The notes beneath the pieces are model-generated. The model saw only the letters and a program-made list of their open reading frames with translations, did not search any database and was not told the origin of the DNA. Made by a program: the position numbers and the translations under genes. A stretch of DNA of 64,000 nt from Catenuloplanes niger (GTDB lineage: Bacteria > Actinomycetota > Actinomycetes > Mycobacteriales > Micromonosporaceae), in assembly GCF_031458255.1 (NCBI RefSeq), contig NZ_JAVDYC010000001.1, positions 1,869,001-1,933,000 of the forward strand. The letters are read 5' to 3'. Positions 6,592-34,946 of the stretch are shown here, one piece after another (positions within the stretch are counted from its first letter, which is position 1; each line of letters starts with the position of its first letter).

Positions 6592-7340
6592 CGATCTGTC
6601 CTCACGGTGGAGTTCTTCTTCGTGGTGGTGTTACCTGCGTGCCCGGCCGGAGCCGGGATATGCGTGGTGCAGACCCCGTCGCCGTGCGCGATCGTGGCCA
6701 GACGCTGCACGTGGGTGCCGATCAGGCGGGAGATGACCGCCGTCTCCGCCTCGCAGAGCTGGGGGAACTCGGCGGCCACGTGCGCCACCGGACAGTGGTG
6801 CTGACACAGCTGCCCGCCGGTCGCGATCGTGGTCGCGTTCGCAGCGTAGCCCTCCGCGGTCAGCACGGCCGCGAGTGCCTCCGCCCGGGCGAACGGGTCG
6901 TCGCCCGCCCCCTCCAGGGCCTGCCGGCAGCGCTGCTCCAGCGCGGAGACCTGTGCCTCGGCGAACTCGGTGACGGCCGCGGCACCGCTGTGCACCGCGA
7001 TGAAGCGCAGCGCCGCGGAGGCGATGTTGTCGTAGGCGTGCGTGCCGCACCGCAGCCGCGCCGCGTCGGTGAGCAGGAAGACCTTGGCCGGCCGCCCACG
7101 CCCGCGCGGCGCGCCCGAGGTGTGGTCACGGGTGGTCACGTCACCGTCGGCGAGCAGCGCGTCCAGGTGGCGGCGGATGCCGGCGGCGCTCAGCCCGAGC
7201 GCCCGGCCGAGCTCGGCCGCGGTGGCGCCACCGCGCTCCAGCAACAGTTGAGTGATCTTGTCCCGGGTGCGGCCGTCCTGCGCGCCGGTGGCCGGGTCGG
7301 CCTCCGTCGCGCTCGCGGAGAGCAGCTCCAGGTTTTTCAC
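6588..7340 (-). CDS. sufR: SufR Fe-S-sensing transcriptional repressor of the suf operon
   Basis: About 250 residues. An N-terminal DeoR/ArsR-like winged helix ([20 protein letters not shown], then [14 protein letters not shown]) is followed by a C-terminal cluster-binding region with Cys in CQHHC, PQLC and DGVC. SufR binds DNA as an Fe-S protein and represses suf when clusters are sufficient. The frame extends 12 codons further, but the GTG at 7340 fits best: it is 7 nt from a good -10 element and gives the family-like start (V/M)KNLELL. The predicted operator overlaps this start, consistent with autorepression. Confidence 0.92.
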
Positions 7341-7376
7341 TACGCCAGTGTTACGTATTTCGGCTCGCACCTGCAA
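7337..7376 (-). promoter_or_regulatory. sufR promoter with SufR operator; mRNA probably leaderless
   Basis: On the minus strand TTGCAG (7376-7371) and TAACAC (7353-7348) are separated by exactly 17 bases and serve as -35 and -10. Seven bases after the -10 comes the GTG start at 7340. The inverted repeat ACACT-N5-AGTGA at 7351-7337 (CACT/AGTG arms perfect) overlaps both the -10 and the start codon. It differs by one base from the ACACT-N5-TGTGA element reported for mycobacterial SufR. Confidence 0.65.
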
Positions 7377-26234: not shown

Positions 26235-26894
26235 ATGACCAGCGCCGAACCGTCTCTGACGCTGGCCGTCGGCTCGCTCATCCTCGGCTTGGCGGCCTCA
26301 CTCCTCTGGACCGTGACGCGATTCCTCATCGTCGCCGCGCATCACGGCAGTCAGGCGCTCCTGTTCTCCGCCGGCGGCCGGCGGATCAAGCACATCGAGA
26401 TGCGGCCGGGCCGGAGCGAGATCGTCGTCGAAGGTGACGCGTCCTTCTTCGCCCTGCTGGGCGGGTTCCTCGGCCCTTCCCTGTTCGGCTTGCTCGGTGC
26501 CACCATGCTGGCGCACCGGCTGAGTCCCGAAACAGTACTGTGGACCGCCTTCATCCTCCTGGCGATCGTCTTCTTCCAGACGAAGAACCCGTTCGGCCTG
26601 GTCATCACCGCCATCTACGGCACGCTGCTCTTCGTCCTCGCCCGCAACGGCTCCGCCGGAGTCCGCGCCCTCTCCGCGTACTCACTGGTCTGGTTCCTGC
26701 TTCTCGGCAGCGTCATCCACACGGTCCTCTACAGCGTGGCCGGGAAGGACGCGGCCGACCTGCGTAAGGCAACCATGATCCCGACGAGTCTCTGGCGGGC
26801 GATCTGGTGGCTCGCCTCCATGGCAGCGCTGATCTACGGCGGCGGTGTCCTGTTCGGCCTCATTGATCCGGTGTTCCGGCGCGCGCCCGGGTGA
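26235..26894 (+). CDS. M50B-like membrane protein with degenerate zinc motif
   Basis: A 219-residue integral membrane protein with about six helices. Its layout follows the actinobacterial peptidase M50B family: a first helix ending at the zinc motif, then a (G)GRRIKHIEMRPGRSE beta segment, then GGFLGPSLFGLLGATML. At the place of HExGHAL it has HHGSQAL (residues about 36-42), so the catalytic Glu and second His ligand are lost. It is probably not a peptidase and may act in binding or regulation. It may be leaderless. The gene converges on the HerA-like gene, whose 3' end overlaps it by about 35 bases. Confidence 0.7.
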   Translation: MTSAEPSLTLAVGSLILGLAASLLWTVTRFLIVAAHHGSQALLFSAGGRRIKHIEMRPGRSEIVVEGDASFFALLGGFLGPSLFGLLGATMLAHRLSPETVLWTAFILLAIVFFQTKNPFGLVITAIYGTLLFVLARNGSAGVRALSAYSLVWFLLLGSVIHTVLYSVAGKDAADLRKATMIPTSLWRAIWWLASMAALIYGGGVLFGLIDPVFRRAPG

Positions 26895-29800
26895 CCACCT
26901 CCTCGGTGGAGAGCGGGCTCGCCGGGTGGTGGGTGAGGCAGAGCGGGGTGCGGAGCTTGCGGGGGGCCGAGCCCTCGGCCGCGAGGTAGAACTCGCCGCT
27001 GGTGAGGCGGGCGATGTCCGGGACGTCGCCGCCCTTCGCCTTGGCCATCTCGCGGGCCGTGTCCATCTGGATCGGGCTGTTCAGCCGCCCGTAGAGCTGC
27101 GTCGCCGAGTTGCCCGGGATCTGGTTGTGCAGGCCCTTCGGGGACTGGGTGGCGAAGATCAGGCCGAGGCCGTACTTGCGGGCCTGCGAGACCAGCGCCA
27201 GCGTGCTGCGCGTGCAGGGCGTCATGCCGGTGGACGGCGCGAGGTTCTGGGCCTCGTCCATGATGAGCAGGCCGCCGAGCGGGCGGTCACCGGCCGGGTG
27301 ACGCCGGATCCAGGCGAACAGCGCCATCTGCAGCTGGTTGACGAAGCTCTGCCGCATCTCGTCGCTGCCCAGCCCGACCATGCTGATCACCGACACCCGG
27401 GCGCGCTTGCCGGGCGGCGGCGTGAGCAGCATGCCCGGGTCCATCGCGGTGCCGGCGCCACCGAACAGCGGATCGTTGTACTTCGCCGCGGTCAGCGACT
27501 GCGCCAGCCCGTTCGCGATCTTCGCGGAGTCGTCCAGCTCGATGATGTCCTCCGGGAAGTCGGCGAGCGTGTCGATCAGCCCCTGGAGCCGGCTGCCGCC
27601 CTGCCGCCCGTAGTGCTCCACCGCCTTGCGCAGCACCGCGAGCTGCAGGTTCGACTTCGCGCCACGACCGCTCAACGCCCGCGGCGCCAGCGACGCCACG
27701 GCGGACTCGACCGCCTCGTTGAACTCGTCCGGATCGTCCCGCACACCGGCGAAGTCCGGCAACGCCTGGAAGACCAGCGGCCGCCCACCGTCCCGGCGCG
27801 GCGTCCAGACCACCACATCCGTGTGTGCCAGGTAGTCCGCCGCCTTCGCGGCGTCCCCTGCCTCCCACGCGGCCGGCTCCTCCGGCCACGCGTCCCCGAG
27901 CCGCGCCAGGTCGTTGTTGATGTCCAGCACGATCGAGGACACGCCCTGTAGCGCACACTCTTCCACGATGCGCCGAATCAGCACCGTCTTACCAGACCCC
28001 GATCCCGCGAAGATCGACATGTGCTTCCGCAGAGCCTCCAACTGGAGTGGAACGGCCACGCCCGAGTCATGCCCACGCCCGATCACGAACGACGCCGGTA
28101 TTTCGGCGTCGTTGATCGCCTGCCGCGGGATGAGACCAGCCGCCGGCGCCGGGCGGCCAGCCGGAGCAGAGAGGCTGGAGGTGCCAGCCAACGGACCCGG
28201 CTCACGCCGCCCATCCGCCGATGCCGCGATGACCAACTCGGCGGCCGGGCCAGTCTCGGCCGGCACCCGGGCCTCGTCAGCGCGGTCAGCGGCCAACTGC
28301 CCCGTACGGACTCCGGACGGGAGTGCCGGTTCTGTCTCGACTTTCTTTAGCGCCTGCACATCCGGGCCGGCGCTGACGACGGCGTCGAGTTCTCCCAGCC
28401 AGACGTCCGCGTCCGCGAGCGCAGCCTCGAAGACCGCCACGCTCCGGGTCGGACGGCGCGCGATGAGCCAAGCGCGCAGCTCAGCGGACTGGTCCTGCAG
28501 CATCATGCGAAGCGCGAACAGGATGCGTAGGTCCTCGGCGTCCAGCGGCAGCCGGGTGCCTCCGCTAGCGGCGAATGCGGACACCGCCTCGCGCGTCTTC
28601 GGCCCCCCGGTCATCTCACCGTTGCGCAGAATGAACAACTTGCGTTTGGGCACCTTCCCGTCGAGGCCCGCCGCGTTGCTGGCCTTGCGCAGCCGGGACA
28701 ACGTCGCCAACGCGGGATGCTCCTCACTGATCGCCCGGAAGCACCAGTGCACCTGGTCCTCCTGGGATGCGTCGATCGTAAGCCGGAGCCGGGCATGCAG
28801 GGGCGGGCGTGAGCTGGGCGGAGGATCCAGGCTGAACGGCTCGCCCGCCTCCCCCCGCTCTAGGACCCAGGCCGTGAGCCCGGCGGCGAGCAGGATCGGA
28901 ATCTCCGCGTCCTCCCTGGCACCAGTCAATGGCCCGGTTACGTCGGCGAGCCGCTTGAAGTCGACAAATCGCGCGTCGAGCCGGTCCATCTCATCGGCTG
29001 GCACGTCCGCGACCGGGACCTCACCTCTCGGCGCTGCGTCGCCCAAGCGGGTCAGTTCGCGTACCTCGCCGGCGCGCAGACACGCCCGCACATGTGAGTC
29101 AATCTCAATCAGCAGTTGACGTGGCGTGAAGTCTCCGACGTCCTCCAACGCTTTCTCGCTGACCGGCCAGGTCGGATAGGGCGGTCGAAAACCGATCTCC
29201 TGGAACCGCACGCCGAACCGCTTCTCGATGATTTTCCGGCCCAGGCGCCGATCCCGAATCGTGTTGATGACGGCTGACATCCGGAATCGGCTATGCACCG
29301 AAGCGGTGGACCGCCTCCTGATCAACGTCCAGGTCGGTGGGAGGCAGGACACCACCGTGAGCGTCCGGCGGGTGCGTTCCCGCAATGTCATCAGTCCACC
29401 GGCGATCTGTTCCAGGGCGGCCGCTTCAGCAGCGTCCCCGAGGCCCTCGGTCCGAGCCGCATCGCTCGACGCCGCCGATTGCGCGACCAGGGTGTCGATC
29501 TGATCGACCGCGATCACAGCCGGGCCGGTCAGCGCGAGCAAGCGGGAGAGCTCCTGCACGATTAGCTCGGATGTCTTGGGCATCGGACGCATGCCCCAGG
29601 CCGCGCGCTCATCGAGGGCGGACTCGTCGAGCAGCGAGAAGTACCCGTCCGCAAGGTTGAAATAACCGTCTGCCAGGTTCTGGTGGTCGAAGTCGTCCGA
29701 CGCGCTCAGCGCGAGCGCCCGAGCGGTGTCCTGACTGAACCGGGCCACGTAGCCGTCGTACTTGGCCAAGCCCAGAATAAATGCGTCCAACGTCTCCCGG

Positions 29801-30252
29801 GTCAGGGTGGTCTCACCCATGAACGCGCGACGGGCCAGCCGGGGTGCACCGACCTTGGAGGAAAGCCTGCGAAGCAGCAACTGCAGTTGCGTCTCCCCGT
29901 GAGCGCCCACCGGCCTCGCCAGCCCGTCGAGCATCGAGGCGAGGACGCTGCCCCAGAATCCCTTAGAGTCAAGCAGGCTGACGAGGAAAAAGTAGCCGCC
30001 GAGCTGCTGCGTGTGCTGACGGACCCAGCCCAGCATGTGGGTCTTGCCAGAGCCGGGAAGCCCCTGCAGAACTACACCGACCGGGCTGTTCTCCTCGTTC
30101 CGATTGGCCTCAGCGACGCCCTCCACCACGTTTTGCACCACGGTGGGGTGCAGACCGTCCACGTGGAATCGCGATGGACGCCAGACGTCGTCCGGTACGC
30201 GCGCCCAGTCGAAGTTGAGCGCCGCCAGGGCAGCCTGCTCCTCCTCAGTCAT
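26860..30252 (-). CDS. AAA - HerA/FtsK-like double ATPase, last gene of the STAND-nuclease operon
   Basis: About 1130 residues with two P-loop modules. The N-terminal AAA-like module has Walker A GLPGSGKT (about 65-72) and Walker B AVIAVDQID (about 246-254). The middle (about 380-700) is helical with no recognised family. The C-terminal module matches HerA/DUF87 translocases: FVIGRGHDSGV, Walker A GSGSGKT (about 751-757), VLDINNDLARL, Walker B GLLIMDEAQN and the motor segment FATQSPKGL. HerA proteins move along double-stranded DNA and work with nucleases. ATG 30252 overlaps the upstream stop as ATGA, with GTG 30255 as alternative. A tandem NLADGYF duplication lies at 29638-29679. Confidence 0.85.
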   Translation of the reverse strand: MTEEEQAALAALNFDWARVPDDVWRPSRFHVDGLHPTVVQNVVEGVAEANRNEENSPVGVVLQGLPGSGKTHMLGWVRQHTQQLGGYFFLVSLLDSKGFWGSVLASMLDGLARPVGAHGETQLQLLLRRLSSKVGAPRLARRAFMGETTLTRETLDAFILGLAKYDGYVARFSQDTARALALSASDDFDHQNLADGYFNLADGYFSLLDESALDERAAWGMRPMPKTSELIVQELSRLLALTGPAVIAVDQIDTLVAQSAASSDAARTEGLGDAAEAAALEQIAGGLMTLRERTRRTLTVVSCLPPTWTLIRRRSTASVHSRFRMSAVINTIRDRRLGRKIIEKRFGVRFQEIGFRPPYPTWPVSEKALEDVGDFTPRQLLIEIDSHVRACLRAGEVRELTRLGDAAPRGEVPVADVPADEMDRLDARFVDFKRLADVTGPLTGAREDAEIPILLAAGLTAWVLERGEAGEPFSLDPPPSSRPPLHARLRLTIDASQEDQVHWCFRAISEEHPALATLSRLRKASNAAGLDGKVPKRKLFILRNGEMTGGPKTREAVSAFAASGGTRLPLDAEDLRILFALRMMLQDQSAELRAWLIARRPTRSVAVFEAALADADVWLGELDAVVSAGPDVQALKKVETEPALPSGVRTGQLAADRADEARVPAETGPAAELVIAASADGRREPGPLAGTSSLSAPAGRPAPAAGLIPRQAINDAEIPASFVIGRGHDSGVAVPLQLEALRKHMSIFAGSGSGKTVLIRRIVEECALQGVSSIVLDINNDLARLGDAWPEEPAAWEAGDAAKAADYLAHTDVVVWTPRRDGGRPLVFQALPDFAGVRDDPDEFNEAVESAVASLAPRALSGRGAKSNLQLAVLRKAVEHYGRQGGSRLQGLIDTLADFPEDIIELDDSAKIANGLAQSLTAAKYNDPLFGGAGTAMDPGMLLTPPPGKRARVSVISMVGLGSDEMRQSFVNQLQMALFAWIRRHPAGDRPLGGLLIMDEAQNLAPSTGMTPCTRSTLALVSQARKYGLGLIFATQSPKGLHNQIPGNSATQLYGRLNSPIQMDTAREMAKAKGGDVPDIARLTSGEFYLAAEGSAPRKLRTPLCLTHHPASPLSTEEVVTRARAGTPDQ
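29638..29679 (-). repeat. 21-bp in-frame duplication inside the HerA-like gene
   Basis: Two adjacent 21-base units encode NLADGYF twice in the N-terminal ATPase module. They have diverged at several bases but not in protein, which suggests the copy is retained by selection. Confidence 0.8.
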
Positions 30253-30899
30253 CACACCCCGATCGCCAGCAGGTGATTGTCCTGACCGCCGCTGCGCACC
30301 GCCGACTCGATGTCGGTAGCCGTCAGCGACTTCTGGTTAACCTCCGGCGCCAGCACCCCGTCCTCGCGGGCGAGTCGCTTAAGCGCCTCGTCCAGATCGG
30401 CGCGCGGGACGTCCGCGAAGTACGGGCGGAGACGGGCAAGGCTCACCCAGGCACCCGGCTCACTGGCCAGTGATTTGTACACGTCCCGGATTCGGCCACT
30501 CAGGTTGGCGGTCGGCACCGGGGCAGGCTCGGCACGCTGCGCCGGAACGAACGAACTCTGCGCGAGCGCCTCACCGAACGTCTGGAACTGGGTCTTCGGC
30601 AGCACACGGTCCCGCATCGCGGCATGGAACGCGGACAACGCCGCACCGAGCACACGCGGCGTGGACCGGGGGAAGGCCAGGTCACCTTCCATCAGCGCCC
30701 AGCCCTTGTCGCCGAGCGCGTGGACCATAGGACGACCGTCCTGGGTCTCGAGGTAGCCCAGCCGGTTAAGCTTCTGCCGGCTCTTCGCCTCCAGCTTGAA
30801 TCCGTACACCTTCTCCAGCTCCGGATTCGGAATCTCACGGTTTTCCGACATGAGCAGGATAAGAAGTGCGCTCTCCAGCGCGGTAAGGCTTTCGGCCAT
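30252..30899 (-). CDS. Two-domain winged-helix protein of the STAND-nuclease-HerA operon
   Basis: A 215-residue protein. Residues about 1-75 look like one winged helix (ALESALLILLMSENREIPNPELEKVYG, then KSRQKLNRLGYLETQDG), and about 130-205 like a second (LSGRIRDVYKSLASEPGAWVSLARLRPYF, DLDEALKRLAREDGVLAPE). No enzyme motif is seen. It could be a DNA-binding adaptor or the operon regulator. It is 2 bases after the nuclease gene and overlaps the HerA-like start by a few bases, so it belongs to the same transcript and probably the same complex. Confidence 0.8.
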   Translation of the reverse strand: MAESLTALESALLILLMSENREIPNPELEKVYGFKLEAKSRQKLNRLGYLETQDGRPMVHALGDKGWALMEGDLAFPRSTPRVLGAALSAFHAAMRDRVLPKTQFQTFGEALAQSSFVPAQRAEPAPVPTANLSGRIRDVYKSLASEPGAWVSLARLRPYFADVPRADLDEALKRLAREDGVLAPEVNQKSLTATDIESAVRSGGQDNHLLAIGV

Positions 30900-30901
30900 G
30901 G

Positions 30902-31939
30902 CTATAACCCTCTCCGGACGTCGTGTCGCCGTTGGTTGATGAAAATGCCGATCTGGCGCACGACCGCCTCGACATCGTGTTGAACCCGCGCGTTGGTGAA
31001 TCTCAGAACCGCGAAACCGTCCAACTGAAGCCGTACGTCCCGCTGCCGATCTTCCTCGAAACGGTCCGGCCGACAGTGTTCCGGCCCATCGATCTCAACG
31101 ACGCAGCGCTCGTCCCGCCACAGCAGGTCAAGCCGTACCGGCTCGGCCAGTGCATGTGACTGGTAATTCTGGTTCCAGGCACGACCGCTCGCCCAGGGCT
31201 GCCGTGCGAGCGCCGCCTCCAGCGCCGACTCGCACCCGCTACGCGGATGTGGCCGGCCGGAAACCGTGGCATCACCGCCGACTCCAGATATGACCGGCAC
31301 GGCCGCCGATGCCGCCACGGCGAGGTCCGCGGACTCTGCCACCCCCATGGGCAGGTGAACCACGGGCAGGTGGTCAACGGTTCTCAGCGGCGCACCGCAC
31401 AACCACACTCCGGTCCCGGCCCGGTCCGCGAGCCACTCGGCTCCGGCCACGACCGTGCGCTCCTGCTCCACGCTCAACCCGGCCGGAAGCCCCATCAACA
31501 ACACCAGTCGCCGACGCCCCAGCCCGTCCGCGACCACCTGAGCCAGCCCGCGCGCCCGGACCTCGACCGTGAAGCGGGATCGCCTCGGCATCCCGGACAG
31601 CGCCGCAGCTGCCAGGTCCGCGAGAAACAATCCGAAGTGACAACTACCGGTGGCGTGCTCCATCGCGAGCGCACGGGCGGCGGCGATCCCGGTGCCGCCC
31701 GGCGAATCGATGTGTTCCGCTCCAGGTAGCCACGCAGGAAACAGCTCGTGCGCCGCCCGCTCCAGATCCATCAGCACCCTGCCGACGAAGTCGCCGATCC
31801 GGCGTGCGGGTCGGAACTGATGACCGAAGGCGGCTGGCAGATCCGGTTCGCCACGCGCGACGAGCAGAGCGAGCCGGTCCGAGTCGACCTCGCCACGTAG
31901 TTGCACCGGCCGGTCGAGAGGGAGATCGGTGAGCATCAC
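30902..31939 (-). CDS. Protein with C-terminal DUF559/Vsr-type endonuclease domain
   Basis: About 345 residues. The N-terminal ~240 residues are alpha/beta without a recognised family. The C-terminal part (about 265-335) has the restriction-endonuclease-like DUF559 pattern: VRLDLLWRDERCVVEIDGPEH followed by DRQRDVRLQLDGFAVLRFTNARV. The Asp of RLDLLW, and Glu and Asp in VVEIDG, supply the metal-binding site, so it should be an active nuclease. GTG 31939 or ATG 31936 is the start; it overlaps the STAND gene stop. Nuclease genes beside HerA-like translocases are typical of DNA-processing or defence pairs. Confidence 0.82.
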   Translation of the reverse strand: MMLTDLPLDRPVQLRGEVDSDRLALLVARGEPDLPAAFGHQFRPARRIGDFVGRVLMDLERAAHELFPAWLPGAEHIDSPGGTGIAAARALAMEHATGSCHFGLFLADLAAAALSGMPRRSRFTVEVRARGLAQVVADGLGRRRLVLLMGLPAGLSVEQERTVVAGAEWLADRAGTGVWLCGAPLRTVDHLPVVHLPMGVAESADLAVAASAAVPVISGVGGDATVSGRPHPRSGCESALEAALARQPWASGRAWNQNYQSHALAEPVRLDLLWRDERCVVEIDGPEHCRPDRFEEDRQRDVRLQLDGFAVLRFTNARVQHDVEAVVRQIGIFINQRRHDVRRGL

Positions 31940-34113
31940 GACAGGTCCTCCGCGTCCGTACCGTCCGGGTTGATGCCGAAGACCCGCAGCAGGTGCAACG
32001 TCTCGCGATCTGTCTCCTCACGTACAGTCAACAAGGCGAGATAGCGGTCAATCGCACCGGGCGTACCCGCGTTCACCTCGGCCAGTAGCGCATCGACCGC
32101 GCCGAGGTCGAATAGCAGCTCGGTAAGCTCGCGGGCAGCATCGTCGTCGCCCGCGTCGACCCGGGCCCTCAGTGCGTTGGCCTGGCGGGCGGCTGCGTCG
32201 TCCTGATCACCGGACGGAATATCCGAGACGAGCTTGTTGTAGCGACGCATGGCGTCCTCGTCACCCGCCTCCGCCCGGAGCTTCAGCTCCGCCGCTCGAC
32301 CGTGCATGGCGAGCAGGTCGGCGAGCTGTTCCGCGGCATATCGATGACCTCGCGCGGCACGGTCACGCAGCTCGTCCAGGTGGCCACGGTCGACGAGCAG
32401 ATCGACCAGCTGTTCGGCGGCAAGAGCGTCACCGGTGTCGGCGCGTTCCCGCAGTCTCGCAGTACGGCCCGCGTCGTTGAGCAGCTCATCCAGCGCGGTG
32501 GCAGCGCTGGGCTGGACCGGGATGCGGGGCCGCAGGTCGTCAGCACGGCGTTTGAGCTCCCACAGCTCGGCGTGCCGGTCGCGGAGCGTGGGTGCCGGGC
32601 TGACCGCCATCCGCCGTGCCAGTACGTCGATGGCCTCATCGATCCGGTCCTGTCGGGTCAGCAGCCCGGCCAGATCAAGGGTGGCCAGGTCGTTGCGTTC
32701 CGGGAGTCGGCGTAACGCGGCCTCCGCATAGCGGTAACGCATGCGCGACTGGGCACTCACCGCGAGCCGGCGCAGATCATCCGGATTTGTCACGTGGCGC
32801 AGAAGCGCATTCCACAGGCTGGCCGGCGGGCAACTGGTGCGCTTCACCCGGCGGATGTGCTGAGCGAGGAAGTCGGCGATCATGTATCCGTCGAGTGCAC
32901 CGGCTCGTCGCGCGAATGGCGCAAGCGCGGTCACCCCACCCTTGAGCCTCGTCGTGGCGTGCGGCAGCGCCTCCCCGAGCCAGGATTCGGGCGGCGTAGC
33001 TCGGTCGCTATGACCGAGGTAACCCTCAATAGCATCGCGAAGCAGAGCCTCCGGTAGCGGTGATCCCACGCCGAGCCGGCGTGCATCAGCTGCTGCGGTC
33101 ATCACGGCCCGGGCATACGGATTCGGCGCGTGCTGCCACCACTGGACCAGGGCTGGAGCGCCCGCGAGCGTCTGCGGCAGCCCGGCATTGCCACCCGTCT
33201 CCAGGGCTTCCCGGATTCGGCTGTCCGTCGCCGCCAGCGCCCCGGCCGTCTCGCGCTCCCGTTCGGACAGGGTTGCGTGAACATCGATCACGATGGCATT
33301 GGAGAGCAACTGCCGGTCATGCATGTACTTGTCGACACCGGCTGGCCGGCGTATCGCGGTACGAGGGAGGTATTCCTCCGACCACAGTGTTCCGACGACG
33401 ATCATGCCCGCCTTAAGCATGCCTTCCAGAACAGCCCGGGTCAGCGGCGGATCGGCACCGAGGAAGTTCTGCAGCTCGTCGAGCCAGAGAACGGTCTTCT
33501 CGGTGGGCACGTCGCAGGCCCGAATGACATCACGTGTGTCGGCGGGATGCAGAAGCCACCAATCCGGCACGACGGCGAGAATCGCTTCGTACAACGAACG
33601 GGTCTTTCCGGTCGAGGAGCCACCGACCATCAGTACGAAGCAACCCTCGTCCACGCCCTTCGCGATGTGCCCGCGCAGCTCGTCATCGAAGTCCCGGACA
33701 ACATAGGCCGGTAACTCGCTCGCCGATTCACCGGCTCGGATCGACGCATGGATGCCGAGCGCCCGGGGGGAGGCTTCCCGGCACCGCACGGCGTTCTCCG
33801 GCCCGACACCGGGCTCGGCGTCCAGACGCCGCCAGACCTCGCGCACCCTGGCACGCACCTCGTCGCGAATCGGCCAGGCCTCCAGCAGCCGTTCCAGCAG
33901 GACCTTCCGGATCGGGCGTCGGCCGCTCAATGCATCGCTGACGGCAACACGCCGGAGCTCGCGATCACCAGGCCGCCGCCGGCTGGCCTCCACCTCTTCG
34001 AGATCGGTGAAGTTCATTCCGGTGCCCTGATGAATGAGGCTCAGCCAGACGGCGAAATCCGACCAGGTGCGGATCTCGGGAAGATCAGCATTGGCGGAGG
34101 ACAGCGGGCTCAA
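31936..34113 (-). CDS. HTH - STAND-like P-loop NTPase - helical repeat protein, first gene of the operon
   Basis: 725 residues. The N-terminal ~110 residues resemble an XRE-like helix-turn-helix region (TWSDFAVWLSLIHQG ... SDALSGRRPIRKVLLERLLEAW). Walker A is GGSSTGKT at 164-171 and Walker B TVLWLDELQNF at about 207-217. The C-terminal half (about 440-690) is a series of degenerate TPR/Sel1-like helical repeats (AAEQLVDLLVDRGHLDELRDRA, AAEQLADLLAMHGRAAELKLRA). STAND NTPases with such C-termini often sense an intruder and switch on an effector. The only start before the upstream stop is TTG at 34113, directly after GAGGGG; true initiation may differ. Confidence 0.82.
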   Translation of the reverse strand: MSPLSSANADLPEIRTWSDFAVWLSLIHQGTGMNFTDLEEVEASRRRPGDRELRRVAVSDALSGRRPIRKVLLERLLEAWPIRDEVRARVREVWRRLDAEPGVGPENAVRCREASPRALGIHASIRAGESASELPAYVVRDFDDELRGHIAKGVDEGCFVLMVGGSSTGKTRSLYEAILAVVPDWWLLHPADTRDVIRACDVPTEKTVLWLDELQNFLGADPPLTRAVLEGMLKAGMIVVGTLWSEEYLPRTAIRRPAGVDKYMHDRQLLSNAIVIDVHATLSERERETAGALAATDSRIREALETGGNAGLPQTLAGAPALVQWWQHAPNPYARAVMTAAADARRLGVGSPLPEALLRDAIEGYLGHSDRATPPESWLGEALPHATTRLKGGVTALAPFARRAGALDGYMIADFLAQHIRRVKRTSCPPASLWNALLRHVTNPDDLRRLAVSAQSRMRYRYAEAALRRLPERNDLATLDLAGLLTRQDRIDEAIDVLARRMAVSPAPTLRDRHAELWELKRRADDLRPRIPVQPSAATALDELLNDAGRTARLRERADTGDALAAEQLVDLLVDRGHLDELRDRAARGHRYAAEQLADLLAMHGRAAELKLRAEAGDEDAMRRYNKLVSDIPSGDQDDAAARQANALRARVDAGDDDAARELTELLFDLGAVDALLAEVNAGTPGAIDRYLALLTVREETDRETLHLLRVFGINPDGTDAEDLS

Positions 34114-34418: not shown

Positions 34419-34946
34419 ATGCACGTCAGCAGCCAGTCCACCGTTGTCGCACCGGCCCGCCTGCGCGGCGGCTTCGGTGCTTACCGGGGTACCACCAGCG
34501 GCACCCGCCGCAACCAGCTGCCCCGACCGCCGCGTCCACGCTCCGCTCCCGACACCACCATCGCGACCGGCACCGCGCCAACCATCGTGTTCGGCACCGC
34601 GCCGGCCGTCGCCACCGGCACCGCGCCGGCCACAGCCACCCCCACCGCTCCAGCCAGCGCGATCAGCCCAATCCCAGCCACCGCAGCCGGCACCGCGACG
34701 GCCGTCGCAGCCGGTAGCACAGCGGCCACCGCAACGGGCACCGCGACGGCCGTCGCGGTGGACGGCACGGTCACCACCGTCGCCGGCGGCACCATCGGCG
34801 CGACCGCCGGCCTCCCCGCGACCGGCGCCGGCGGTGTGCGCGGCGCCGACGGCACCTCGACCGAGGCCGGAGCCGAGGCCGAGGCCAGAGCCGGAGCCCG
34901 GGTCGAAATCGACCTCGACTGGTTCGTCCACCCCTTCGTCGACTGA
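34419..34946 (+). CDS. Ala/Thr/Gly-rich low-complexity protein, unknown function
   Basis: A 175-residue protein. A basic, Pro/Arg-rich start (about 1-45) is followed by a long region of TGTAP/ATATG-type repeats (about 48-140), an Ala/Glu stretch, and a distinct acidic-aromatic end EIDLDWFVHPFVD. Coding is supported by strong G/C preference at third positions, a good GAGGGAGAG ribosome-binding site and a terminator-like hairpin 34 bases after the stop. It could be structural or surface-attached, but there is no clear signal peptide. Antisense frames are also open because of base composition, so confidence is moderate. Confidence 0.5.
   Translation: MHVSSQSTVVAPARLRGGFGAYRGTTSGTRRNQLPRPPRPRSAPDTTIATGTAPTIVFGTAPAVATGTAPATATPTAPASAISPIPATAAGTATAVAAGSTAATATGTATAVAVDGTVTTVAGGTIGATAGLPATGAGGVRGADGTSTEAGAEAEARAGARVEIDLDWFVHPFVD

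Follow-up and report, generated by a model that had tools for sequence, protein, structure and literature searches.

A four-gene operon in Catenuloplanes niger

The window analyzed here is a 64-kb stretch of the soil actinobacterium Catenuloplanes niger (bases 1869001-1933000 of a genome assembled as one 9.74-Mb contig). Its listing of open reading frames (ORFs) contains a minus-strand block of four genes at 26860..34113 (Table 1), hereafter genes 1 to 4, which code for a P-loop NTPase, a DUF559 nuclease, a winged helix-turn-helix (wHTH) protein and an AAA+-HerA motor. The coordinates and tight spacing given in the initial annotation were reproduced, with junctions, in 5′-to-3′ order along that strand, of −4 bp (1/2), +2 bp (2/3) and −4 bp (3/4), and a promoter and terminator scan of the 5′ side of the operon gave nothing informative. 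Comparison with related loci identifies genes 3 and 4 as the core of this operon, the nuclease as the commonest partner of that core and gene 1 as a lineage add-on.

A conserved wHTH-HerA pair with changing partners

When one genome per species was scanned with an alignment of HerA sequences, at least 564 relatives were recovered in 597 stretches, and the best 80 were fetched as loci; the closest named one among these 80 is from Catenuloplanes japonicus (79% to the window HerA). An ORF matching the wHTH profile is present in all 80 loci and is the called gene next upstream of HerA in 79 of them (L077 has the ORF and no gene call), with a junction of −4 in 57 and −1 in 16 of the 79. The nuclease occurs in 55 loci, and in 52 of the 80 it is the called gene directly preceding the wHTH gene. 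Gene 1 occurs in only two, one of them from the same genus as the window, and we accordingly rejected the reading of all four genes as one conserved system: the earlier proposal that they are conserved together does not extend beyond the genus. Since, among the loci studied, these two and those of the window's genus are the only ones with gene 1, we treat it as an addition in this lineage and not as part of the core.

Effectors were sought anywhere in each fetched locus with one blastp query each (1e-8) or with the nuclease profile, a search that misses unknown as well as distant effectors. Besides the 55 loci with DUF559 nucleases, four carry a TIR protein with a ParA-like/TIR protein upstream of the wHTH gene (L099, L102, L107 and L111), three a DUF4365 gene with a 333-346-aa gene, likewise upstream (L083, L101 and L105), three a pair of Trypco1 and STAND-WD40 genes, which is divergent and 270-380 bp away (L053, L055 and L065; outside the 80 also L026 and L028), and one an AIPR gene directly downstream of HerA (L097; outside the 80 also L020 and L029, whose AIPR genes match PADLOC AbiU at 3.3e-112 and 3.5e-76); in 14 loci no effector was recognized. 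Trypco1 is defined in PMC7159879 beside trypsin-like peptidases of conflict systems, and a trypsin domain lies above the cut-off in L053, with none reported in L055. The DUF4365 cassettes of Kibdelosporangium and Rhodococcus rhodnii are nearly identical (98% and 93% identity), which shows that transfer between families has been recent. The 333-346-aa gene sits between the DUF4365 and wHTH genes in all three loci (e.g., L083 6272-7312 and L101 6379-7380), and the two copies scanned, those of L083 and L101, had no Pfam match.

A further 16 loci, namely the window, three records from the plasmid collection and 12 from genomes of the family, comprise five with gene 1 and the nuclease, three with the nuclease only, two each with AIPR, STAND-WD40 and PDC-M55B, and two at contig edges. 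PDC-M55B is a PADLOC candidate family; the match in L031 is at 31% and lies elsewhere in the locus. In G001, a genome of the same genus as the window, a second wHTH-HerA pair has an AAA_15/DUF3696 gene and a PDC-M55B gene upstream of it (L022 8619-11496), a possible further effector type. The window genome also has a second pair (L020, 681799-684960), which is followed by an AIPR/AbiU gene rather than a nuclease, and its HerA is 60% identical to that of the window in the C-terminal part and 36% in the N-terminal part.

The partners follow the phylogeny of the motor. In a quick HerA tree of 96 rows, with 'none' scored as a label of its own, effector labels change 13 times, against a mean of 31.7 when shuffled, which indicates that effectors follow HerA clades yet differ between them. 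The TIR loci form one clade and the DUF4365 loci another, both with full support; the three AIPR rows do not group with one another; the 12 effector-less rows from Mycobacteriaceae fall in a clade of 13, the last member of which has a nuclease. Furthermore, pairwise distances over 49 loci (those of 81 rows in which each of the three genes was called at a length inside fixed bounds, without L058, which comes from the same genome as G002) correlate at r 0.90 between HerA and nuclease and at r 0.91 between HerA and wHTH, with none of 2000 permutations as high.

Two other arrangements of these modules are recorded here for their own sake. Rhodococcus sp. IEGM 1381 (L092 2435-9579) has tandem HerA genes, each following a wHTH ORF, with a nuclease found only before the first. 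In Tsukamurella (L008 5544-14582), a nuclease-wHTH-HerA module lies together with a VapB/PIN pair and a helicase gene within the ribosomal-protein operon, flanked by rpsQ and rplN.

Domain architecture of the encoded proteins

The alignments used comprised the window with 37 of the 80 loci and four family loci (A5), the window with 31 (A6) and the window with 46 of the 55 nuclease loci (A7), and residues were recounted over 96 HerA and 63 nuclease ORFs. The HerA/FtsK translocase domain of gene 4 (DUF87, 6.8e-10 in Pfam) has intact Walker A and B motifs, sensor glutamine and arginine finger. Taking both P-loop modules of the motor together, G70, K71, D251, D254, K756, T757 and R1026 are unchanged in all 96 sequences and D1000, E1001 and Q1037 in 95, with a gap in L031, in which HerA is split over two frames. 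The closest structural neighbors of the HerA/FtsK domain are HerA proteins, including those of the anti-phage SIR2/HerA and DUF4297 complexes, and DndH. The split HerA of L031 (9385-12538, genome G012) consists of two overlapping ORFs and may be broken or mis-sequenced.

The AlphaFold2 (AF2) model of gene 4 (pLDDT 85.7, pTM 0.61) places a STAND/ORC-like AAA+ module at the N-terminus. AAA_16 was matched at 0.001 or better in 26 of the 27 N-terminal halves scanned, the half from the window being the miss, and the whole window protein matched it at 4.9e-4, below the Pfam cut-off; a PDB profile search with the module gave weak matches to AAA+ and other proteins, the best at 0.015. The middle domain is modeled with the order alpha-beta-beta-beta-alpha-beta-alpha-beta and gave no PDB profile or fold match. 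Its R507 and R521 are kept in 96 of 96 sequences and H487 and R544 in 95, and the succession of strands and helices in residues 448-569 fits a restriction endonuclease (REase)-like fold with no conserved ExK: across residues 470-547, no glutamate or lysine is kept in 30 or more of 42 sequences, while D477 and D495 are kept in 34 and 33. We consider it a candidate inactive REase-like domain. Gene 4 lacks a HAS barrel, having a predicted disordered linker at residues 630-718 instead; no HAS-barrel match was returned by Pfam at E up to 1, and matches to full-length HerA chains begin at chain residues 109-157.

Gene 3 diverges more than the rest of the operon core and matches no Pfam family. Its predicted structure has winged-helix-like units; structure searches with it give mostly MarR-type proteins, and Foldseek gave no match at 0.001 or better. 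The wHTH profile matched 179 PDB sequences up to E 1 (best 7.5e-6), the 60 listed being calmodulin or calmodulin fusions, and a calmodulin-like identity was dropped because of the winged-helix-like units of the model and the MarR-type structure matches.

Gene 2 matches DUF559 at 4.4e-11 in Pfam, with MTES_1575 as the sole other family, and its profile retrieves 3hrl, an 'Endonuclease-Like Protein', at 1.2e-12. N256, D271, E282, D284, H288, R300 and D301 are identical in all 62 complete nucleases, the 63rd (L035) being truncated by the contig end and left out. The intact DUF559-type core and the motor with an extra N-terminal AAA module, both read from the window earlier, thus extend to the relatives, and decay of the nuclease or Walker residues is ruled out by the 62 of 62 nucleases and 95-96 of 96 motors that retain them.

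Gene 1 has Walker A and B motifs whose columns are nearly invariant in the six sequences aligned. Its STAND-type match is weak (nSTAND3 at 0.065, in one of the six members), as is that to TPR_14 (0.31 in the window protein, 0.0016 in one relative), and a PDB profile search gave no useful match. It is present in all five same-genus genomes and in one Phytohabitans locus (L061), overlapping the nuclease gene by 4 bp in each of the six. Relatives were found in 90 plasmid records (79 from Streptomyces), several of the 15 listed being annotated as TPR or Sel1 repeat proteins, and weaker matches are found elsewhere in genomes of the family. We regard gene 1 as a probable lineage-specific accessory, acting as an extra sensor or regulator.

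Table 1. Genes of the operon and their domains, by position in the window
Feature	Residues	Position	Strand	Description
Gene 1		31936..34113	−	725-aa P-loop NTPase with C-terminal helical (TPR/Sel1-like) repeats
Gene 2		30902..31939	−	345-aa nuclease with C-terminal DUF559 (PD-(D/E)xK-type) domain
DUF559 core of gene 2	270-331	30947..31132	−	Pfam stretch
Gene 3		30252..30899	−	215 aa, two winged-helix-like units
Gene 4		26860..30255	−	1131-aa AAA+/middle domain/HerA translocase
AAA+ module of gene 4	37-395	29071..30147	−	Predicted STAND/ORC-like (AAA_16), from the model
Middle domain of gene 4	420-630	28366..28998	−	From predicted secondary structure
Linker of gene 4	630-718	28102..28368	−	Predicted disordered, pLDDT <50
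HerA/FtsK translocase domain of gene 4	719-1118	26902..28101	−	

Insertion site and distribution

Each of the five same-genus genomes (G001-G004 and the window genome) has the block inserted between pgl and rbpA, and no block gene is found at this site in any of eight genomes from other genera of Micromonosporaceae, in agreement with the initial annotation, which saw an acquired islet breaking the pgl-to-rbpA/secG backbone. No repeats or tRNA mark the insertion, and there is no tRNA gene within the window. Identities of the block proteins within the genus are 54-85% (in two genomes HerA was compared by its best segment only), as opposed to 93-100% for opcA, pgl, rbpA, secG and tpiA, a divergence of the kind that an arms race would give. 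In sampled genomes of the class, the HerA domain is found at 1e-50 in 15 of 148, the own genome included, two of these 15 matching over less than half of the domain; among 20 relatives, HerA is strongly present in 10. An example from another phylum came from Methylobacterium.

Convergent with the HerA gene and overlapping it by 35 bp is a Peptidase_M50B-like gene (PF13398, 6.3e-23; window 26235-26894). It may belong to the inserted stretch because its identity within the genus is low (54-62%) and it has no match at the site in the eight genomes of other genera. On the other side of the block, an alanine/threonine-rich repeat ORF without Pfam match (34419-34946) contains eight overlapping 48-nt copies at 24-bp spacing (34558-34773).

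A proposed anti-invader system and its alternatives

The recurrence of a conserved pair in many other bacteria, beside interchangeable cutting or killer genes, suggests that a known kind of defense against invading DNA has a branch not yet described. We think it likely that the operon, located on the chromosome, encodes a variant of the HerA/FtsK capture systems that acts against invaders with an exchangeable effector, and to which the NTPase was added in Catenuloplanes. Defense, the role favored by the initial annotation, remains the likeliest one: we infer it from the swapped effectors, the scattered distribution in the class (15 of 148 genomes) and the structural kin of the HerA domain. Under this proposal, the wHTH protein and the AAA+-HerA motor would form a recognition-and-motor core, in which the winged helices and the AAA+/middle module might load onto invading double-stranded DNA and a HerA ring, presumably a hexamer, would pump the captured DNA using ATP. 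Engagement of the motor could then switch on the exchangeable effector from the neighboring gene. The DUF559 nuclease would cut the captured DNA or, in a suicidal response, that of the host, and the gene 1 product added in Catenuloplanes and one Phytohabitans would most likely be a second sensor or an NTP-dependent switch licensing the nuclease.

We are evenly divided on a broader version of this proposal, in which the wHTH protein and the AAA+/middle/HerA motor are a general plug-in core that has not yet been described in that role. Actinobacteria would couple it to effectors as diverse as a DUF559 or DUF4365 nuclease, TIR, AIPR or protease/STAND proteins, with docking on the AAA+/middle module or on the wHTH protein in place of the HAS barrel of known HerA complexes. 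If true, a HerA-type pair in about one-tenth of the sampled genomes of the class would be a defense core with interchangeable outputs, and DUF559 nucleases and a HAS-barrel-free HerA architecture would be added to the defense catalogue. Swapping effectors on a single core would then give a direct test of how one DNA pump can trigger outputs as different as a nuclease, a TIR enzyme and a protease/STAND protein.

Several observations weigh against the capture-type proposal. The 80 loci are the best of at least 564 relatives and their proportions lean to close ones. The 14 pairs with no recognized effector (12 from Mycobacteriaceae, one from Pseudonocardia and one from Gordonia; one of them, L079, has only 858 bp upstream) are left unexplained by a strict effector model. 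Of the label groupings in the tree, six involve 'none', a label for which two rows lie at a contig edge (L027 and L030, outside the 80, end there), and long branches were flagged (e.g., L009 with L029). The co-divergence can be explained by shared descent alone, and vertical descent contributes to it. With AIPR downstream and STAND-WD40 divergent, these links are weaker than an upstream overlap. The neighbors of the block are also of low identity (54-62% for the M50B-like gene, 58-86% for two small ORFs), so that low identity marks the region and not the block alone. Lastly, HerA is rare on plasmids, with three occurrences in 72,556 records (one of these records being 11.85 Mb long), and is found in none of 50,697 phage records. 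Travel mainly on phages or plasmids was rejected on these counts and on an empty viral-contig scan with the window protein; the same scan with the alignment gave four distant HerA-domain matches at 29-32% identity.

The alternative that survives best, although we judge it unlikely, is that two independent systems meet here, gene 1 being a stand-alone NTPase gene of immunity or signaling that landed upstream of a nuclease-wHTH-HerA operon. The plasmid-borne relatives of gene 1, its weaker matches elsewhere in the family and its absence from 78 of the 80 loci favor such an origin, whereas its retention in all five same-genus genomes and the 4-bp overlap with the nuclease gene, shared with Phytohabitans, speak for a functional tie.

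It is improbable that the wHTH-HerA pair is itself selfish or housekeeping, with the effectors as cargo using its promoter. The effector-less pairs, above all the 12 mycobacterial ones with a single nuclease-bearing row in their clade, would suit that explanation. However, effector type tracks HerA clade and the nuclease co-diverges with HerA, and one of these mycobacterial pairs (L108) retains, just upstream of the wHTH gene at 7178-7354, a DUF559 piece of about 50 aa that is 46-54% identical to the nucleases. Its sister L088 has a whole nuclease gene, which suggests effector loss and not an ancestral solo state.

A double-strand-break repair motor with its nuclease, comparable to HerA-NurA end resection, appears more improbable still: presence is patchy across the class, other clades carry TIR, AIPR or STAND-WD40 genes instead, and gene 2 is a DUF559 protein with no NurA match in Pfam at E up to 1. 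Least probable of all is a DNA-transfer or mobilization element built on an actinobacterial conjugation translocase and its regulator, given the near absence from plasmid and phage records, a window devoid of tRNA genes and partners that are nuclease, TIR and AIPR genes.

Comparison with known systems

The capture-type proposal has to be set against other systems with HerA-like motors, and membership in MADS, DndFGH, HerA-NurA and the SIR2/DUF4297 systems was rejected on the results given below. PADLOC profiles returned nothing for genes 1 and 3 and only DpdF (0.032) for gene 2, gene 4 being detected through mad8, a generic HerA and a weak DndH. As in MADS, the motor is of the mad8 type (1.7e-21, the best PADLOC match of the window HerA; mad8 also matches 42 of 42 homologs scanned), but genes 1-3 have no mad-family match at E up to 1. 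DndF and DndG are likewise unmatched, and the DndH match is at E 0.015 over 46 residues. Unlike in the HerA-NurA repair pair, gene 2 is a DUF559 protein, with no NurA match listed. The window operon also differs from HerA-DUF4297 and HerA-SIR2 (Nezha) in that genes 1-3 have no DUF4297 or SIR2 match in Pfam, an AAA+/middle module with a predicted disordered linker stands in place of the HAS barrel, and a wHTH gene lies upstream.

The main text of PMC12839542, which extends the capture theme to BREX relatives, describes BREX-related capture (BRC) systems, whose loci bring together a STAND NTPase, a multi-wHTH protein and HerA/FtsK, much as here. By that account, BRC systems also carry PglZ and a BrxC-like DUF6079 ATPase, neither of which is among the four genes, and DUF559 does not appear in that main text.

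The exact combination was called unfamiliar in the initial annotation, and this holds in part. No paper on the DUF559-wHTH-AAA/HerA architecture was among the matches listed, as judged from the openings of abstracts; on the other hand, the general combination is described in the main text of PMC10853773 (Rakesh, Aravind and Krishnan 2024). The HerA/FtsK capture systems presented there unite an ORC/CDC6 ATPase, inactive and active REases, HerA/FtsK and wHTH proteins in varied arrangements. In their ORC/CDC6 class, the AAA+ core is followed by an inactive REase domain and then by a C-terminal wHTH, and an active restriction-type nuclease of one of two families accompanies them. That main text mentions TIR as a domain fused to the ORC/CDC6 protein and does not mention DUF559, AIPR, DUF4365, trypsin or actinobacteria.

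Measured against that description, the window operon fits the HerA/FtsK capture kind in general. It shares with those systems the AAA+, HerA/FtsK, wHTH and restriction-type nuclease components, which may be joined in one polypeptide or spread over more, as well as a fast-evolving wHTH protein and the idea of catching invader DNA; the domain that follows its AAA+ module is probably non-catalytic and so consistent with their inactive REase insert. It is set apart from the systems of that account by the union of AAA+, middle domain and HerA in a single polypeptide after one wHTH gene in all 80 loci, and by its usual effector, a DUF559 nuclease, replaced in other clades by TIR, AIPR, DUF4365 or STAND-WD40 proteins.

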